Positions 5,637 to 60,887 of a stretch of DNA of 64,000 bases are shown here, piece by piece. The translations under genes were made by a program, and so were the position numbers. The stretch covers positions 1-64,000 of the forward strand of contig JARYMI010000009.1 in assembly GCA_029907205.1 (NCBI GenBank), read 5' to 3'. A model generated the notes under the pieces. It was not told the origin of the DNA, searched no databases, and was given only the letters and a program-made list of their open reading frames with translations. The number at the start of each line of letters is the position of its first letter. Position 1 is the stretch's first letter. The DNA is from Clostridiales bacterium. Its GTDB lineage: Bacteria; Acidobacteriota; Aminicenantia; Aminicenantales; UBA8522.

Positions 5637-5820
5637 AGAAGCATCTCCCACTTTGTGATTTTTATGAAGGGTGCAGGAGGCTGCCCTGAAGCCCCCGTAG
5701 CGGAGGGGGGACCCGTCGGCTTCACCGACGGGGGGAACCCACGGGACTGGTTCCCCGGGGTGCGGGGGCCAAAGGGCAGCTTCCTGCACCCTATTGAATT
5801 ACATAAACGGAGATGCTTGC
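5637..5820 (+). mobile_element. MITE-like element, type I core (copy A)
   Basis: Ends AGAAGCATCTCC and (rc) GCAAGCATCTCC; core 5668-5792 closed by AGGGTGCAGGAGGCTGCCC / GGGCAGCTTCCTGCACCCT with internal hairpins; >80% identical by eye to copies B, C and D. Confidence 0.85.
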
Positions 5821-5893
5821 AGAGGGCGTTGACGAGGGGCGATCATTTCCGACATAATGCGTGTGAAAAGCTTTTTCCTGAAAAGAGGCGTCA

Positions 5894-7324
5894 ATGAAAA
5901 AAATCGGCATTGTTCTTGGCATATCTATTGCGCTCTTGAGCGCCCTGGGGTGCGCCGTCAACCCTGTCACGGGCAAAAAGGAGCTTAGCCTTATCTCCAA
6001 CGAACAGGAGGTCGCCCTCGGCCAGCAGACCGATGGCGAGATTCGCCAGCAGTTCGGCGTCTATGACGACCCTTCGCTTACCTCCTACGTCGAGAGCATA
6101 GGAAAGGCTCTTGTTCCGTATGCTCACCGGCCAGAGCTTGAGTACCACTTTGCTGTCCTGGATACTCCCGTCGTCAACGCCTTCGCCGTGCCGGGCGGTT
6201 ACATCTACCTGACCAGGGGCATCCTCGCTTTGATGAACTCGGAGGCCGAGATGGCTGTTGTTCTCGGCCACGAGCTCGGCCATGTCAATGCCCGGCACAG
6301 CATCCGGCGGATGAGCCAGATGATGCTGGCCCAGGTCGGCCTGGCAGTGGGAAGCGCGCTGAGCGAGACAGTGGCCAAAATTTCCGGCCTCGCTGGAGTA
6401 GGAATACAACTCCTTTTCCTCAAGTACAGCCGCGACGACGAATACCAGGCCGACTCCCTCGGAGTGGAGTATTCCAGAAAAGGGGGCTTTAACCCAGGCG
6501 AGATGATCGGTTTTTTTGCCTCCCTTGAAAAATTGGGCGACTTGTCGGGCGGCCGGAGTCTGCCGGGTTTTCTCTCTACCCATCCGCTGACCAAGGACCG
6601 AATCCAGGAGGTCCAGCTCATGCTCACAGCAAGCGACCAGACGCTTGCCCGCAACGAAAACACCTACCTCAAAAAGATAGCCGGCCTTATTTACGGCGAC
6701 GACCCACGCCAGGGATACGTGGAAGGACAGGCGTTTTACCACCCCGAGCTGGCCTTCACCTTTTCTGTTCCGGAAGGCTGGTCAGTCCAGAACACGCCAG
6801 CCAGGGTCGTTCTTGTCTCCAAGGACAAGAACGCAGCGCTTCTTCTTCAGGCTGAAAAAAGCGCCGACCCTCTCTCCGATTACGCCCGCAAGAAAGGCGA
6901 GACCATCAAGGGCGGACGGCTGGTGAGCGAGGACCGGCTCAACGTCCCCGGGTTTTCGTCTTTTCACCAGATCTATGATGTTTCTGAGGAGAACGGTGAC
7001 CTGCTCCGCCTCCGTCTTTCTCTCATCCGCAAAGGAGACCTTGTCTACTCTCTTTCTGCCCTTGCCAAGTCTCTGGATTTTGCGAGCTACGATTCTTTAT
7101 TCAAGCGGACAGTCCAGTCTTTCAGCGAGCTCCGTGACCCGAAATATCTGCAGCGCAGCCCCTTGCGTCTTCGCCTCGCTGAGGCCGACGGCCGTCAGGC
7201 GCTCCAGGAAATTTTTGTCCGGGCGGGGATGAAAAAGGAGCTCTGGCCCCAATTTGCCATCATGAACGGAACGGAGCTCGATGCGGTTCCTCCCGCCGGC
7301 CAGCTGATCAAAACGGCCTCCTGA
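5894..7324 (+). CDS. M48 family metalloprotease, lipoprotein
   Basis: Lipobox LLSALGC; zinc motif VVLGHELGHV; DDEYQADSLG. Confidence 0.92.
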   Translation: MKKIGIVLGISIALLSALGCAVNPVTGKKELSLISNEQEVALGQQTDGEIRQQFGVYDDPSLTSYVESIGKALVPYAHRPELEYHFAVLDTPVVNAFAVPGGYIYLTRGILALMNSEAEMAVVLGHELGHVNARHSIRRMSQMMLAQVGLAVGSALSETVAKISGLAGVGIQLLFLKYSRDDEYQADSLGVEYSRKGGFNPGEMIGFFASLEKLGDLSGGRSLPGFLSTHPLTKDRIQEVQLMLTASDQTLARNENTYLKKIAGLIYGDDPRQGYVEGQAFYHPELAFTFSVPEGWSVQNTPARVVLVSKDKNAALLLQAEKSADPLSDYARKKGETIKGGRLVSEDRLNVPGFSSFHQIYDVSEENGDLLRLRLSLIRKGDLVYSLSALAKSLDFASYDSLFKRTVQSFSELRDPKYLQRSPLRLRLAEADGRQALQEIFVRAGMKKELWPQFAIMNGTELDAVPPAGQLIKTAS

Positions 7325-27707: not shown

Positions 27708-28930
27708 AGAAGAAAAAGTTCTGGGCCTGGGTCTGGGTCGCGCTCTGTATCCTGGCTATCCTTCTCATTGTTCCCCTGGCCCGGACGATCCAGGCATTCG
27801 TCTCGGCACGTTGGGGAAGGTCGCTCTTCGGCTATGCCGTTCTGGCCGCGGTCGGCATCGCCTTCATCTCCATCGTCACGATCCTTGTTTGCCGCCTCAA
27901 GATCCGTTCACCCAGCCGACTGGTCTGGCTTGCGGCCGTGGCCGGCCTGTATGTCTACTTCACCATGAAATTGTGGAAAGCGCCGGAAGAGGCTATCCAC
28001 TTCCTTGAGTACGGGCTGTTAGGGTTCCTGCTCTTCAATGCTTTAAGCTATTCGACCAGGGACAAAAGTGTTTACCTGGCGGCGTTTTTCATCGGTTCGA
28101 CAGTCGGAATTTTCGACGAAATCCTGCAGTGGGTCGTGCCTGGCCGTTTCTGGGATTTCCGCGACGTCGGTCTCAACGCTCTGGCTGCAGGCCTCTTCCA
28201 GGTCGCGCTCTGGAAAGGAATCAAGCCCAGCCTCATCTCGGAAAAATTCAACCCGAGATCGGCCCGGCGCATCTCGGTCGTCCTGGCTGTGAACCTTGTC
28301 CTTTTATGCCTGTGCGCCTCGAACACGCCCCAGCGGGTTGCCTGGTACGCCAGCCGCTTCCCTTCCCTCTCCTTCCTTCTCAGGGAAGAGCCTATGTATG
28401 AGTTCAGCCTGAAACACAAGGACCCGGAAATCGGAATTTTCTATTCTCGGCTGTCTCCCGAAGAACTCAAAAGAGAAGACCGGGAAAATTCAGACGGCAA
28501 CGCTGAGGTCTTGAGGACCTGGAAAGACAAAGACTACAGCCTTTTCCTGAGCCACCACAGCCCCTTCCTCCACACCTTTTTGTACGAAATGCGCGTCCGC
28601 ATCTTCCGCCGGGACAGGAAGGCAGAGGAAGCTGCCCGAGCAAAAAAGGAGCGGGCGGCGAATGAGTCTTTATTCATCTCGTTCAAAGAAAACCTCATCC
28701 TGGAGAAATATTTCGGCCAGACCCTTGAAAAATCCACGTATTCCTGGGATGAAGATAAAAAGAGAAAGACCGAGGCGCACATAGACAAAAACCGGCCCTA
28801 CAAAAGCCCGGTCAGCCGCGGTCTCATTCACGTAAAGGAAAAAACCATCTGGGTCTTCACCCTGATCGCTCTAATCTTGCTGGCGGTCATCAACGGCCTG
28901 TATTCTTACAAGATGCGCAGGAAAATCTGA
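27704..28930 (+). CDS. VanZ-like membrane protein
   Basis: KAPEEAIHFLEYGLLGFLLFNAL...GIFDEILQWVVPGRFWDFRDVGLNALAAGL VanZ signature. Confidence 0.82.
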   Translation: MKKKKFWAWVWVALCILAILLIVPLARTIQAFVSARWGRSLFGYAVLAAVGIAFISIVTILVCRLKIRSPSRLVWLAAVAGLYVYFTMKLWKAPEEAIHFLEYGLLGFLLFNALSYSTRDKSVYLAAFFIGSTVGIFDEILQWVVPGRFWDFRDVGLNALAAGLFQVALWKGIKPSLISEKFNPRSARRISVVLAVNLVLLCLCASNTPQRVAWYASRFPSLSFLLREEPMYEFSLKHKDPEIGIFYSRLSPEELKREDRENSDGNAEVLRTWKDKDYSLFLSHHSPFLHTFLYEMRVRIFRRDRKAEEAARAKKERAANESLFISFKENLILEKYFGQTLEKSTYSWDEDKKRKTEAHIDKNRPYKSPVSRGLIHVKEKTIWVFTLIALILLAVINGLYSYKMRRKI

Positions 28931-28939
28931 GCCATTTTC

Positions 28940-29121
28940 GGAAGCATTTCCAAACACGGGATCTTTATGATGGACGCAGGAAGCTGCCCACGAGCCCCCG
29001 TAGCGGAGGGGGGACCCGTCGGCTTCTCCGACGGGGGGAACCGACGGGACTGGTTCCCCGGGGCGCGGGGGCCAAGGGCAGCTTCCTGCGCCCAATTTGA
29101 TCACTTAGGGGAGATACTTAC
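28940..29121 (+). mobile_element. MITE-like element, type I core (copy B) with perfect 9-bp TSD
   Basis: GCCATTTTC at 28931-28939 and 29122-29130 flank ends GGAAGCATTTCC / (rc) GTAAGTATCTCC; core 28972-29093. Confidence 0.9.
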
Positions 29122-29157
29122 GCCATTTTCACGCTCCTCGGCTGTTGGCTTGATTAT

Positions 29158-30714
29158 CTATTCGCAGGAGCGCGTTTCTCTGAACACCGAAAGCCGGTGC
29201 GTGCGGAGGATTTCTATTCCCTGTCGAACATAATCCGCGTCGATGTAAAGCCGTTGGAGCAGCCCGTCGTCGCTCCCCCTGAGGAGTTCAGCCCTCACCG
29301 GCGTCAGACGATGGTGGTAGGACTCGAGGACACGATGCCCGACTCGATACGATGTCCGGGCAACGAGGAAGATGAGGCTCAAAAGAACGGCCGCTGATGC
29401 CACGATTTTGATACGACCTCGAGTCGGCGCCTTCAAACTGAGCCTGCTTTCCCCGAACTGGAGGCCGAGGAAAATGACGTTTGAAAACCAGATGAGGTTA
29501 GAAAAAGTCACATACCGGTAGCTTGTTGCCTGAGCCGCCCCGAAACCCACTCTTCCCATACCGGTCAATGCCGCGCAGGAGATGGAATAAAGGCCCAAGA
29601 GAAGAAAAGGCATGGCAGCCACGATCACCTGGCGGTGTTTCTGCAAGAAAAACCACGCGGCCGAGCCAAAGAGAATGAGGCAGAAAATGCCCAGGAAAAG
29701 CGCAGACTCCGGGTAAGTGATGATCGAAGCGCCTAGGTATCCGAGATTATACCGGACGTATTCAAGGGGATGGATGGCAAAATAAAAGGGCGACTTTCCC
29801 GAGGGGGGAGTCGGCGAAAAGCGGTAAAAATACGACACAAAGACGAGAGCCGTCAAGCCTAACCAGATGGCCAAAGCTGTCCGTTTCCGCCGCCGGCTCG
29901 GTGAGGGAGCGAGCAGGAGAGCCAGGAAGGCGACCGGCCAGTAAGCAAGCCCGTTGGCGTAAGAAAACGTGGCCACGACCCCACAGGCAACACCCGCAGC
30001 AAGATTTCTCCACCTGAATTCAGGCATGGCCAGAATAACTAATCCCATGACGACAGCCAGGACGTTGAGGAAAATCTGGATCTGCCAGCCCCAGACCCAG
30101 TTTTCGCCCTGGTGGAGGGAGAAGGCCAGAAGCGAGAGGATGGGCGCGACCCACGGAAAACCAGGGGAGCCTAAAAGCAAGAATACCTTTTTGGCTTGAA
30201 AAAAAACGATGATGAAAATTCCCACGGCCAGAAGGATGCTGAAGACTAGCTCCCAGCAAATGTTGTAGCGGCTGAGGTGAGAAAACCCAAGCATGATGAG
30301 CCGAGGAAAGAAAAGGCGGTGTTCATTGTGAAGCGCCCAGAGGTCGGAGAAAGAAACCCCTTGTTCAAAAGATTTCCCCAGAAGGGGAACAAAATTCCAC
30401 TGATCCCAGAACGGGACATCCACGTGATATCGGCTGACCTGGGTGGTCAGGATAACCAAAGGAACCAGGGTCAGAGCAATGAGGAAAATTGACCAAACGG
30501 CCTTGAACCATTTCTTCCCATCGCGAGAGCATCTCTGTTTCTGGGAATTGAGGCTATGATCGAGGGAGGGTGGCACGGCGCTAGTCCCCGCAACGCCCGA
30601 AGCGTAGGGGACCCCTCTCTTGACGGGTGCGGAGCGAGGGCGGACAGGGACGCGCCGTGACAGGACCCTATTCCCAAACTCGGACATCACAGAATCAGAG
30701 ATGCTAGCTTTCAT
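29158..30714 (-). CDS. Polytopic membrane protein (glycosyltransferase-like/unknown); true start uncertain because the ORF 5' end is a MITE
   Basis: Many TM segments from KKWFKAVWSIFLIALTLVPLVILTTQ onward; first ~60 codons are translated mobile element. Confidence 0.65.
   Translation of the reverse strand: MKASISDSVMSEFGNRVLSRRVPVRPRSAPVKRGVPYASGVAGTSAVPPSLDHSLNSQKQRCSRDGKKWFKAVWSIFLIALTLVPLVILTTQVSRYHVDVPFWDQWNFVPLLGKSFEQGVSFSDLWALHNEHRLFFPRLIMLGFSHLSRYNICWELVFSILLAVGIFIIVFFQAKKVFLLLGSPGFPWVAPILSLLAFSLHQGENWVWGWQIQIFLNVLAVVMGLVILAMPEFRWRNLAAGVACGVVATFSYANGLAYWPVAFLALLLAPSPSRRRKRTALAIWLGLTALVFVSYFYRFSPTPPSGKSPFYFAIHPLEYVRYNLGYLGASIITYPESALFLGIFCLILFGSAAWFFLQKHRQVIVAAMPFLLLGLYSISCAALTGMGRVGFGAAQATSYRYVTFSNLIWFSNVIFLGLQFGESRLSLKAPTRGRIKIVASAAVLLSLIFLVARTSYRVGHRVLESYHHRLTPVRAELLRGSDDGLLQRLYIDADYVRQGIEILRTHRLSVFRETRSCE
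30525..30708 (+). mobile_element. MITE-like element, type II core (copy 2) with 7/9 TSD
   Basis: AGCATCTCTG/CAGAGATGCT perfect 10-bp TIR; GGGTGGCACGGCG...CGCCGTGACAGGACCC core; flanks TCCCATCGC / TTTCATCGC. Confidence 0.88.
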
Positions 30715-30791
30715 CGCCGATGAATTCCATGCCGCCAGGTTTCACGATTATATTCGATACCTGAATCAAAGTCTAACCAAAGGGCTTTAAA

Positions 30792-30974
30792 GGAAGAAAT
30801 TTCACGCATGAGACCTCCACGATGGGCGCAGGGGGCGGCCCTAAAGCCCCCGTAGCGGAAGGGGGACCCATCGGCTTCTCCGATGGGGGGAACCGACGGG
30901 ACTGGTTCCCCGGGGCCCGGGGGCCGAGGGCTGCCTTCTGCGCCCATGAGAATCACATTAGCAAAAATGTCTGC
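30792..30974 (+). mobile_element. MITE-like element, type I core (copy C) with 7/9 TSD
   Basis: Core 30822-30947 closed by ATGGGCGCAG/CTGCGCCCAT; flanks GGCTTTAAA / CCCTTTAAA; end GGAAGAAATTTC. Confidence 0.85.
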
Positions 30975-38637: not shown

Positions 38638-38819
38638 GGAAGCATCTCTTTTTGTGCGATTACAATCGGCGCCGGAACCACCCTAGGCCCCCGGACCCCG
38701 GGGAACCAGTCCCCTCGGTTCCCCCCGTCGGAGAAGCCGACGGGTCCCCCCTCCGCTACGGGGGCTACAGGGCGGCTTCCGGCGCCCATCGTGAAACATA
38801 CATTTCTGCAGATACTCAA
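38638..38819 (-). mobile_element. MITE-like element, type I core (copy D)
   Basis: End GGAAGCATCTCTTTTTGTGCGATT; core 38668-38786 closed by GGCGCCGGAA/TTCCGGCGCC; no convincing TSD. Confidence 0.83.
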
Positions 38820-38880
38820 GAATATCGGGCATGACTTGGCATAGTTCTTGCTTTCTCTTATAATGATTGAGGAGAAAAAA

Positions 38881-57229: not shown

Positions 57230-59958
57230 GTGGCCGTCAAGTGCCCGAAGTGCGATTTTGAGAATCGAGAGACCCTAAAGTTCTGCGCCGAATGCGGGAC
57301 GCAGTTGGCTAAGCCCAAGGACATCCGTCCTGAGGTCACAGAGACTCTTCAAGCGGCTATCAGCGAGCTGACCACCGGCTCAACTTTCGCCGGCCGCTAC
57401 CGGGTCATCGAGGAGCTCGGCAAGGGGGGAATGGGCCAGATATACAAAGTGCTTGACGCCGAGGTCAAGGAAAAGGTCGCTCTGAAAATCCTCAAGCCCG
57501 AAATCGCCTCCGACGAAGAGACCATCGAGCGCTTCCGGAACGAGCTCCGGTTCGCCCGCAAGATCTCCCACAAGAACGTCTGCCGCATGTACGACCTCAA
57601 CCGCGAGCAGGGCACCCAGTTCATCACCATGGAGTATGTCGAAGGGGAGAACCTCAAGAGCCTGATGAGGCGGATCGGGCAGTTCTCCATCGGAAAGGCC
57701 GTCAGCGTCGCCCGCCAGGTTTGCGAGGGACTGGCCGAGGCGCATCATCTGGGAGTGGTCCACCGCGACCTCAAGCCGCAGAACATCATGATCGACAACG
57801 ACGGCAACGTCCGGATCATGGATTTCGGGATCGCCCGCTCGCTCAAGGGAAAAGGGATTACGGACGCCAGAGTGATGATCGGGACGCCGGAATACATGTC
57901 CCCGGAGCAGGTGGACGGCACGGAGGCGGACGGGAGGGCGGACATATACGCCCTTGGGGTGGTTCTCTACGAAATGCTAACGGGCAAGGTCCCATTCGAG
58001 GGGGACACGGCTCTAAGCGTCGCCCTGAAACAGAAGACGGAGATGCCTCATGACCCGCGCGAGCTCAACCCGTAGATCCCGGAGAGCCTCAGCGCTCTCA
58101 TCCTGAGATGCCTGGAGAAGGATAAAGCAAAAAGGTATCAGACCGTCGAGGAGCTCATCGCCGACCTGAAAAAAGCCGAATTGGGGCTTACCCCGACATC
58201 CGGCATCTTGAGGCCGGCATCATTGGCCAGGCCGAAGCGCAAGAGAACAATCATTGCCGCTGCGACGGCGGTCATCGTGTTGGCCGTCGCCGCCGGGGCG
58301 TTTTTTGTCGTCAGGTCGAGCCGTCTGGATGTCAATCCCAACAGGGTCTTGGTCGCTCCCTTTGAAAATAAGACGGGAGATCCTTCTCTCGATTCGATCG
58401 GCAGTTGGGCTGCCGACTGGATCGCCCAGGGGATTTCCCAGGCCGCCCAAATCGAGGTCGTCCCCGGCCTGGCCGCCCAGGAATCCTTCAGGACCGTGGA
58501 AAGAGAGAGCGGCAAGCTCCAGGGGATGAAAAAGCTTCGGGCGCTGGCCAGGGAAACAAGAGCCGGCACCGTTGTGGCGGGGTCCTATTACCTCCAGGGA
58601 GACAACCTTCAGTTCCAGGCGAATATCATGGACGTAAAGAACGGAAACTGCTTTATGCCTTGCCCTCCGTAACAGGCCAAAAAGACAATCCCAATGAGGC
58701 CGTCGAAACTCTCCAGCAGCGCACCATGGGCGCCATCGCGACTTATTATGCTATTCAGACGGGAGGCTTTGTCACAATTTCTCCGCCCACCTTTGAAGCT
58801 TATCAGGAATATTTGAGAGGGATAGAGCTTTTTGGCAAGGACTATTCACAGGCTCTCGAGCATCTGGGCAAGGCCGAAGAACTGGACCCGGCATTTCTCT
58901 TGCCAAAGACAATAATCGCAACCGCATACTCCAATCAAGGGAATTATGAGAAAGCCAGAGAAATCCTTGAAGAGTTGAACCAAAAAAAGACGCAGCTTGA
59001 CCCGCTCACTCGACTGAGCGTCGATGCCAGGATGGCAAGCCTGCGGGGCCAGAATGAAGAAGCGCTGCGCTATTCCCGCCAGTTAGCCAGCCTGGCGCCG
59101 AATGTCGGAACGACGCGTTATCTTATCGGCCTCTATGAGCTCAGGCTGAACCGGCCGCAAAAGACCATTAAAGAATTCTCAAAGTTCAATGAAAGGAACC
59201 GCGAGATCTCACGGTGGGGGTCAGGAAGCTGGCTTTTCGACGTCTGGGCAGAAGCTTATCATATACTGGGGAATTTCAAAAAAGAGCTCGAAGTCGCAAA
59301 GAAGGGAGAGAAATATTATCCGGAAGAGGTCAGGTTTTTGGCCGTCGAGGCCAGGAGTTTTGCGGCCCAAGGAAAAATTGACAAGCTCAGGGAAGTGATC
59401 GAGAGAAGTCTGACCACGACCTCCCCGACAACGACGCCGGCCGACGTCATGGTTGAAGGGGCGAGTGAGCTTCGCGCCCATGGGAATAAGGAAGAGGCGA
59501 TCAAAATGGCCGGAGAGGCGGTGGAATGGTACAAAGCGAGATCTGCTGAAGAAGCCGCCAAAGAGATAAATCGATACGATCTGGCAGGGGCACTCTATCT
59601 CGCGGAACGCTGGGGGGAAGCGCAAGCGATATTCGAAGCGCTCCTGGCAGCGAAGCCGGATAATATTTCTTACAAAGGCAACCTGGGGACAATTGCCGCC
59701 CGGCTTGGCGATAGAGAAAAAGCCCTCCGGATTTCCGATGAACTCAAAGCCCTCACCAAACCCTATCTATTCGGCGATCACGCCTATTGGCGGGCCTGCA
59801 TCGCTTCCCTCCTCGGCGATAAAGAACAAGCGGTCGCCCTGCTCAGGGAGTCATTCGCCCAGGGAGGAACATACGGCGTCTATCTCCACCGCGACATGGA
59901 CCTCGAGCCCCTCCGCGATTACCCGCCCTTTCAGGGATTGATCAAACCCAAGGGCTGA
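57230..59958 (+). pseudogene. Zinc-ribbon Ser/Thr kinase-TPR protein interrupted by in-frame TAG (58073) and a frameshift (~58643)
   Basis: Kinase ORF 57230-58075 ends at ...PRELNP*; same frame continues IPESLSALILRCLEKDKAKRYQTVEELIADL to ~58640; TPR part continues in another frame to 59958. Confidence 0.85.
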
Positions 59959-60642: not shown

Positions 60643-60887
60643 TGTCTGCGGGATGTTTGATATCGGCGATTCCGAAGGCACCCACTTCATCACCATGGAA
60701 TATGTCGGCGGCGAAGACCTGAAGAGCATGATCCGGATGGCGAGAATATCGCTATTATTCTAGATGCCCCCTGTTTGAAAATATCCGCGACGATGAGAGG
60801 TTCAAGCGAATTATGGACGACGCCAAAGCCAGGGTTGCCGAAATGCGCCGCCGCGTCGAACAAATGGAGCGGTCAAGCTCGAAATAA
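60641..60887 (+). pseudogene. Internally deleted remnant of a kinase-TPR paralog
   Basis: NVCGMFDIGDSEGTHFITMEYVGGEDLKSMIRM (kinase subdomain) followed in another frame by PLFENIRDDERFKRIMDDAKARVAEMRRRVEQMERSSSK*. Confidence 0.75.

Follow-up and report, generated by a model that had tools for sequence, protein, structure and literature searches.

Between positions 28972 and 29093 of the window (the whole 64,000-nt stretch of DNA that was analysed) lies a sequence that can be drawn as several hairpins and recurs with compensatory substitutions, and the question raised by this locus is what such a sequence is and why its structure is kept. A previous sequence-only reading had described a cloverleaf-like core in four copies (A to D), and the stems and stem variants that it quoted were all found to be present and correct. 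Structure was indeed found at 28972-29093, but this stretch was the inner part of a larger palindromic element of 182 bp (28940-29121), whose terminal inverted repeats, target duplications and promoter-targeted insertion, all of them transposon-like traits, had been missed. The parts of this copy (copy B) and its borders were as follows.

28931..28939, + strand: left target-site duplication GCCATTTTC (direct reading and junction test)
28940..29121, + strand: whole mobile element, copy B (homology limits of about 40 genomic copies and 9-bp direct repeats)
28940..28950, + strand: left terminal inverted repeat GGAAGCATTTC
28973..28989, + strand: left arm of the long stem, GACGCAGGAAGCTGCCC, pairing with 29076-29093; the arms covary between copies
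28994..29000, + strand: 5' strand of the head closing stem, GCCCCCG (comparative pairing)
29001..29007, + strand: unpaired conserved strand TAGCGGA, near-invariant across phyla
29015..29035, + strand: hairpin 2, CCCGTCGG-CTTCT-CCGACGGG; 6 of 8 pairs altered on both sides (n = 52 sequences)
29036..29058, + strand: hairpin 3, GGGAACC-GACGGGACT-GGTTCCC; 9-nt loop at 29043-29051 invariant
29066..29072, + strand: 3' strand of the head closing stem, CGGGGGC (comparative pairing)
29076..29093, + strand: right arm of the long stem, GGGCAGCTTCCTGCGCCC, pairing and covarying with the left arm
29111..29121, + strand: right terminal inverted repeat GAGATACTTAC
29122..29130, + strand: right target-site duplication GCCATTTTC (direct reading and junction test)

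Upstream, an ORF ends at 28930, and the left repeat of copy B follows its stop codon immediately; the target duplication of this copy is 9 bp long and perfect. About 40 copies were found in the 3.26-Mb genome (132 contigs), four of them in the window and a fifth on the same contig at 68234-68399, together with many decayed or half copies. When the own-genome copies were aligned, the core was nearly invariant and the outer arms reached GGAAGCATCTC on the left and GAGATGCTTAC on the right, with a terminal inverted repeat consensus of G[GT]AAGCATCTC on the left and GAGATGCTTAC on the right. The two arms of a given copy matched each other with a median score of 22.9, compared to 8.0 for mismatched arms, and both this self-matching and the copy number are far beyond chance. 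Open frames across the core showed frame-breaking indels between copies.

Mobility was assayed at the junctions. For 38 own copies, the 9 bases that flank the element on its left were compared with the 9 on its right; this gave 155 matches out of 342, against 90.5 +/- 8.7 for shuffled partners, and the maximum over all offsets in 200 shuffles was 119. Two copies that share these ends, from other Aminicenantes MAGs (L197 and L185), are likewise flanked by perfect 9-bp repeats. In an Elusimicrobia genome, a young family with the same head and other ends, GTAAGGGTTTAGCG, had clean 8-bp duplications (306 of 352 matches versus 105, a count of which half is independent, as these copies are so palindromic that both strands were read). 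One site was occupied in genome G008 and empty in seven congeners, with inexact borders; a copy in RBG_13_64_14 (L211) lies at apparently the same place, and therefore loss in G014 is possible. For a CTAATA-ended family, target duplications were looked for and none was detected, and insertion into hairpins by the CTAATA- and GGACGC-ended families was seen in few clear cases (L072; L077 and L102) and is not general.

The reading of copy B as a palindromic, non-autonomous transposon is well supported. Its copies are dispersed and non-coding, with terminal inverted repeats and target-site duplications, as expected of a MITE. Bacterial MITEs include the Correia elements, RUP, Nezha and ERIC/RU, which the element resembles in being short and in having tens of intergenic copies, and from which it differs by a deeply conserved, covarying head common to elements with unrelated termini in different phyla. 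We consider the element to be, with a probability of about 0.78, a MITE-like, non-autonomous DDE transposon with a structured head and promoter-targeted insertion. Its mobility is of a known kind, and the shared head is the unusual part.

The promoter targeting was found when the flanks of the own copies were scanned for TTGACA-(16-18)-TATAAT with a score cut-off of at least 7. This gave 23 promoter-like sites on the right side and 15 on the left, and their -35 box lay 15-17 bp from the junction in 12 of the former and in 7 of the latter. Among 26 GTAAGC ends from other genomes, an independent set that includes some elements without the head, there were 2, 10 and 4 matches at 15, 16 and 17 bp, respectively, and the rest of the 0-47 range held 5. 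In the window, no promoter-like site was present at either junction of copy B, which sits between convergent genes, and the following were found at the other copies.

5637..5820, + strand: copy A
5829..5858, + strand: promoter-like TTGACG-N18-CATAAT, 8 bp after copy A and before the ORF at 5894
30747..30775, - strand: promoter-like TAGACT-N17-TATAAT, facing the - strand gene; -35 box 16 bp from the left end of copy C
30792..30974, + strand: copy C, between divergent genes, at 30714 (-) and an SMC-like ORF (+)
38638..38819, - strand: copy D
38836..38864, + strand: promoter-like TTGGCA-N17-TATAAT; -35 box 16 bp from the left end of copy D

The promoter was at first taken as part of the element, a view abandoned in favour of promoter-targeted insertion because the spacer sequences are unrelated and the spacing of a sigma70-type -35 box is found on either side of the element. 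In this lineage, the transposon has the ends G[GT]AAGCATCTC...GAGATGCTTAC, inserts with its junction about 16 bp upstream of such a box, in either orientation, and duplicates 9 bp (8-9) of the target. The element adds a clear non-autonomous case of promoter-targeted insertion and, as this process puts short palindromes just upstream of promoters genome-wide, it may affect regulation. Several GTAAGCATCTC-ended sites without the head (L396, L393 and L399 in genome G040; L385, L394, L397 and L402 in G030) were observed, and at several of these, too, a -35 box lies at a distance of 15-17 bp.

Insertion 15-17 bp upstream of a promoter -35 box has been described for the Mutator-type transposases of the TnGBS, ISLre2 and ISKra4 groups, which insert in both orientations if their ends are near-identical, produce 8-9 bp duplications and have a terminal C (PMC3942029). 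The present element shares all of these traits with them, with a distance of about 16 bp, and differs in being palindromic throughout its 182 bp and in having a structured head and no internal transposase gene. The mover is presumably, by analogy, a Mutator-type transposase of this kind acting in trans. By the p-MULT 3 or 4 transposase criterion, an element of 182 bp that encodes no gene is a passenger only and not a member of TnGBS, ISLre2 or ISKra4. No transposase with matching ends was present at 16 further own-end sites inspected in the own genome, at 7 sites in the Elusimicrobia genome or at 20 sites in relatives, draft assemblies being liable to miss an autonomous partner. Relatives of the UPF0236 and ISKra4 families were found and rejected as the mover, as their ends differ. 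Therefore, as the cognate transposase was not found and the ISKra4-like insertion sequence of the genome has other ends, membership in these IS groups is not claimed. That insertion sequence (L303) occupies the first ~1.7 kb of own contig C77 and has a transposase of 448 aa and 27-bp ends, GCTTTGTCCCAAAGTTGCTTGGTGATG.

The GTAAGC-ended copies might alternatively be moved by an IS66-type transposase. IS66 elements have GTAA ends and an 8-bp duplication, and the Elusimicrobia family, with GTAAGGG ends, 8-bp duplications and no promoter spacing, would fit them. This assignment is improbable for the present copies, whose promoter spacing is a signature of ISKra4, ISLre2 and TnGBS; moreover, an IS66 transposase was absent from the own genome and detected in just 7 of 60 relatives.

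A conserved GTAG adjoins a hairpin in the element, and REPs likewise have GTAG next to a hairpin, so that a REP/BIME-type repeat moved by a REP-associated Y1 transposase (RAYT) was also considered. REP/BIME sequences with RAYTs (PMC2817692) are many-copy extragenic palindromes, a further likeness to the element, which is nevertheless much longer, has target duplications and lacks a RAYT linkage. The own genome has just a classical IS200-type Y1 gene, the flanks of about 30 Y1-transposase loci contained no head, and the presence of the two was uncorrelated. A REP/RAYT origin was rejected on these grounds as hardly credible.

The head, of about 85 nt, was analysed in an alignment of 52 diverse sequences. 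Hairpins 2 and 3 were paired in 95.4% of their cells, compared to 38-60% when the partners were slid, and the covariation score was 0.243, against 0.071 +/- 0.008 in shuffled controls. The larger alignment thus bore out the claim that a structure is maintained here rather than a coding role. The long arms covary as well. Hairpin 2 varies freely in sequence and length, and hairpin 3 shows the paired changes GGGAAACC/GGTTTC, GGAGAACC/GGTTCT and GGGGGACC/GGTCCC around an unchanged GNCGGGACT loop. TAGCGGA and this loop are constant, with the reservation that one set of genome contigs was collected by the exact hairpin 3 pattern, which partly imposes the conservation of hairpin 3 there, and that later regular expressions require TAG[CT]GG[AG], which partly imposes that of TAGCGGA. 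Own copies collected by BLAST and the order relatives agree, TAGCGGA being near-invariant in the own copies too. The near-invariance of the loops, already remarked upon, was upheld with exceptions in the loop of hairpin 3 (CACGGGACT in copy A and GAGGGGACT in copy D).

The pairing scheme itself had to be revised. Instead of a four-hairpin cloverleaf, the comparison favours a fold in which a long stem leads to two hairpins and to a strand that is conserved and unpaired. The hairpins CCCCC-gtagcgga-GGGGG and CCCCG-gggc-GCGGGG can be drawn, but the comparison favours pairing of GCCCCCG (28994-29000) with CGGGGGC (29066-29072). The closing stem is CCCAG/CTGGG in Patescibacteria and GCCCCCG/CGGGGGC in most Aminicenantes; L125 and L209 have other bases in place of the C-run and retain a perfect closing stem (GGCACA/TGTGCC and GGTCGC/GCGACC), so the first hairpin of the cloverleaf is impossible there. 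From these alignments, the head is better read as a three-way junction. One strand would fold as a long hairpin with this junction on top, made of the closing stem, the unpaired TAGCGGAGGGG strand, the covarying hairpin 2 and hairpin 3 with its invariant GNCGGGACT loop.

As had been proposed, the head belongs to no known Rfam family: at the gathering threshold there was no match in the window or in four related loci, the best weak matches having E of about 2. In the literature no description of the element was found, subscription journals being mostly outside the coverage, and phages, plasmids and IMG/VR gave no match to it. HEARO is an Rfam structured RNA with many copies per genome, and such families resemble the element as mobile, covarying structured sequences.

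The head was detected by BLAST in 29 of 60 order relatives, with a patchy distribution. Among the matches listed for the exact pattern were Aminicenantes, Saccharicenans and other Acidobacteriota MAGs, Elusimicrobia, Yanofsky-, Woyke- and Taylorbacteria and one Bacteroides contig. From these relatives, the window itself would come from an Aminicenantes-type genome. The evidence for the taxonomic spread comes from MAGs, and mis-binning may explain the single Bacteroides contig; simple mis-binning does not account for the Patescibacteria copies, as they have their own arms and compensatory changes. The hairpin 3 motif occurred 21 times in a 0.7-Mb Yanofskybacteria genome and 86 and 13 times in two Elusimicrobia genomes, and a reversed control pattern gave zero. 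At least four kinds of ends accompany the head (GTAAGCATCTC, GTAAGGGTTTAGCG, CTAATAnnAACGCAATA and GGACGCTGCCCGGGC) and, conversely, some GTAAGCATCTC-ended elements lack it. The head is a module that, from one phylum to another, is joined to termini of several unrelated kinds. In three Elusimicrobia loci (L379, L381 and L383, genome G065) with the same ends, other hairpins, e.g. CTCTCCCCGCAATGCGGGGAGAG, stand in for part of the head, which suggests head swapping.

The strand on which the structure is kept was assayed through the mismatches in the arms, which were aligned with all mismatches treated alike and one copy per arm family. G.U-type mismatches numbered 89 and A.C-type 38 (p = 7e-6), the former being commoner in 38 arm families and the latter in 14. 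Therefore, the + strand is selected as a single strand. A single-stranded fold of the + strand, as RNA or ssDNA, is thus favoured by the mismatches over a two-strand cruciform, so that of the forms previously suggested (RNA or ssDNA/cruciform) the single-stranded ones fare better than the two-strand cruciform. Equal numbers would also be predicted if pairing persisted with no selection, through template switching that corrects imperfect palindromes at replication forks. That process accounts for arms that are perfect yet locus-specific, and leaves unexplained both the observed bias and the loops that are invariant across phyla, which makes it very unlikely; RNA fits the bias best.

The head may tentatively be regarded, at somewhat under even odds, as acting in the form of RNA, with TAGCGGA and GNCGGGACT binding a conserved cellular factor; the remaining probability falls to an ssDNA fold used in mobility, or to another role. 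The element would be transcribed from neighbouring promoters, and a cellular RNA-binding or processing factor that is widely conserved would meet the head RNA at the two constant unpaired segments that it presents. A more speculative proposal, against which we would lay the odds, is that the head is a selfish or symbiotic three-way-junction domain of ~85 nt, RNA or ssDNA, that several unrelated transposon families took up and that passed from one phylum to another (Acidobacteriota, Elusimicrobiota and Patescibacteria) because its two conserved unpaired segments bind a universal cellular factor.

An ssDNA fold, which a recombinase or nuclease would read as a hairpin on one strand in the course of replication or mobility, would produce the strand asymmetry as well. 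C(GNA)G triloops are frequent in hairpin 2 of Patescibacteria (12 of 25) and are very stable as DNA hairpins. However, the 8-9 bp target duplications of the own and Elusimicrobia families are typical of double-strand DDE insertion, no head was near the Y1 loci examined and some element-bearing genomes were without any Y1 match; this fold has, in our view, a small chance of being the right one.

The copies could also form a family of structured RNA genes with a host function at each locus, mobility being a mere means of spread. The loops, invariant amid covarying stems, speak for this, as does a set of 21 Patescibacteria copies (one 0.7-Mb genome, with one copy of a second genome) whose arms differ (median left-arm identity 57%), are each self-paired (median 21 versus 8) and show 19 G.U against 7 A.C mismatches. 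Such a gene family is unlikely, given the decayed and half copies of the own genome, the patchy presence among relatives, the lack of any consistent promoter of the element's own among those seen, and an orientation and position relative to the flanking genes that are near random. Because of this near-random orientation no cis role was detected, and a cis-regulatory element of fixed orientation was rejected.

If the reading of the element as a transposon with a shared structured head is true, it represents a structured nucleic-acid domain absent from Rfam, of which uncultured bacteria from several phyla carry dozens of copies, and it indicates that a functional structural module can be common to miniature transposons whatever their ends. 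The 21 motif copies in 0.7 Mb are striking for the streamlined Patescibacteria.

Other repeats were observed alongside the element. A second repeat of ~116 nt (GGGACTATGAGTCCCCTTCCAACGG...GACCCCCTTCC) lies inside two element copies of the own genome (L045, 2079-2194, contig C37; L046, 2042-2165, contig C66). Two further own loci, L262 at ~2001 (C38) and L273 at ~1986 on the - strand (C121), have the GGAAGCATCTC end and a different interior, GGAGCGACTTCGAAGGTTTAGCC...ACTGTCTGAGC; the short element at L273 is about 300 bp long and is flanked by ATTGCTCC. A different palindromic repeat of ~190 bp (L103, 539-736, in G008, and congeners) is very abundant in genomes of genus g7. Within the window, 57611-57666 and 60677-60732 are diverged direct repeats (84%) and, by motif, probably kinase-domain paralogues.
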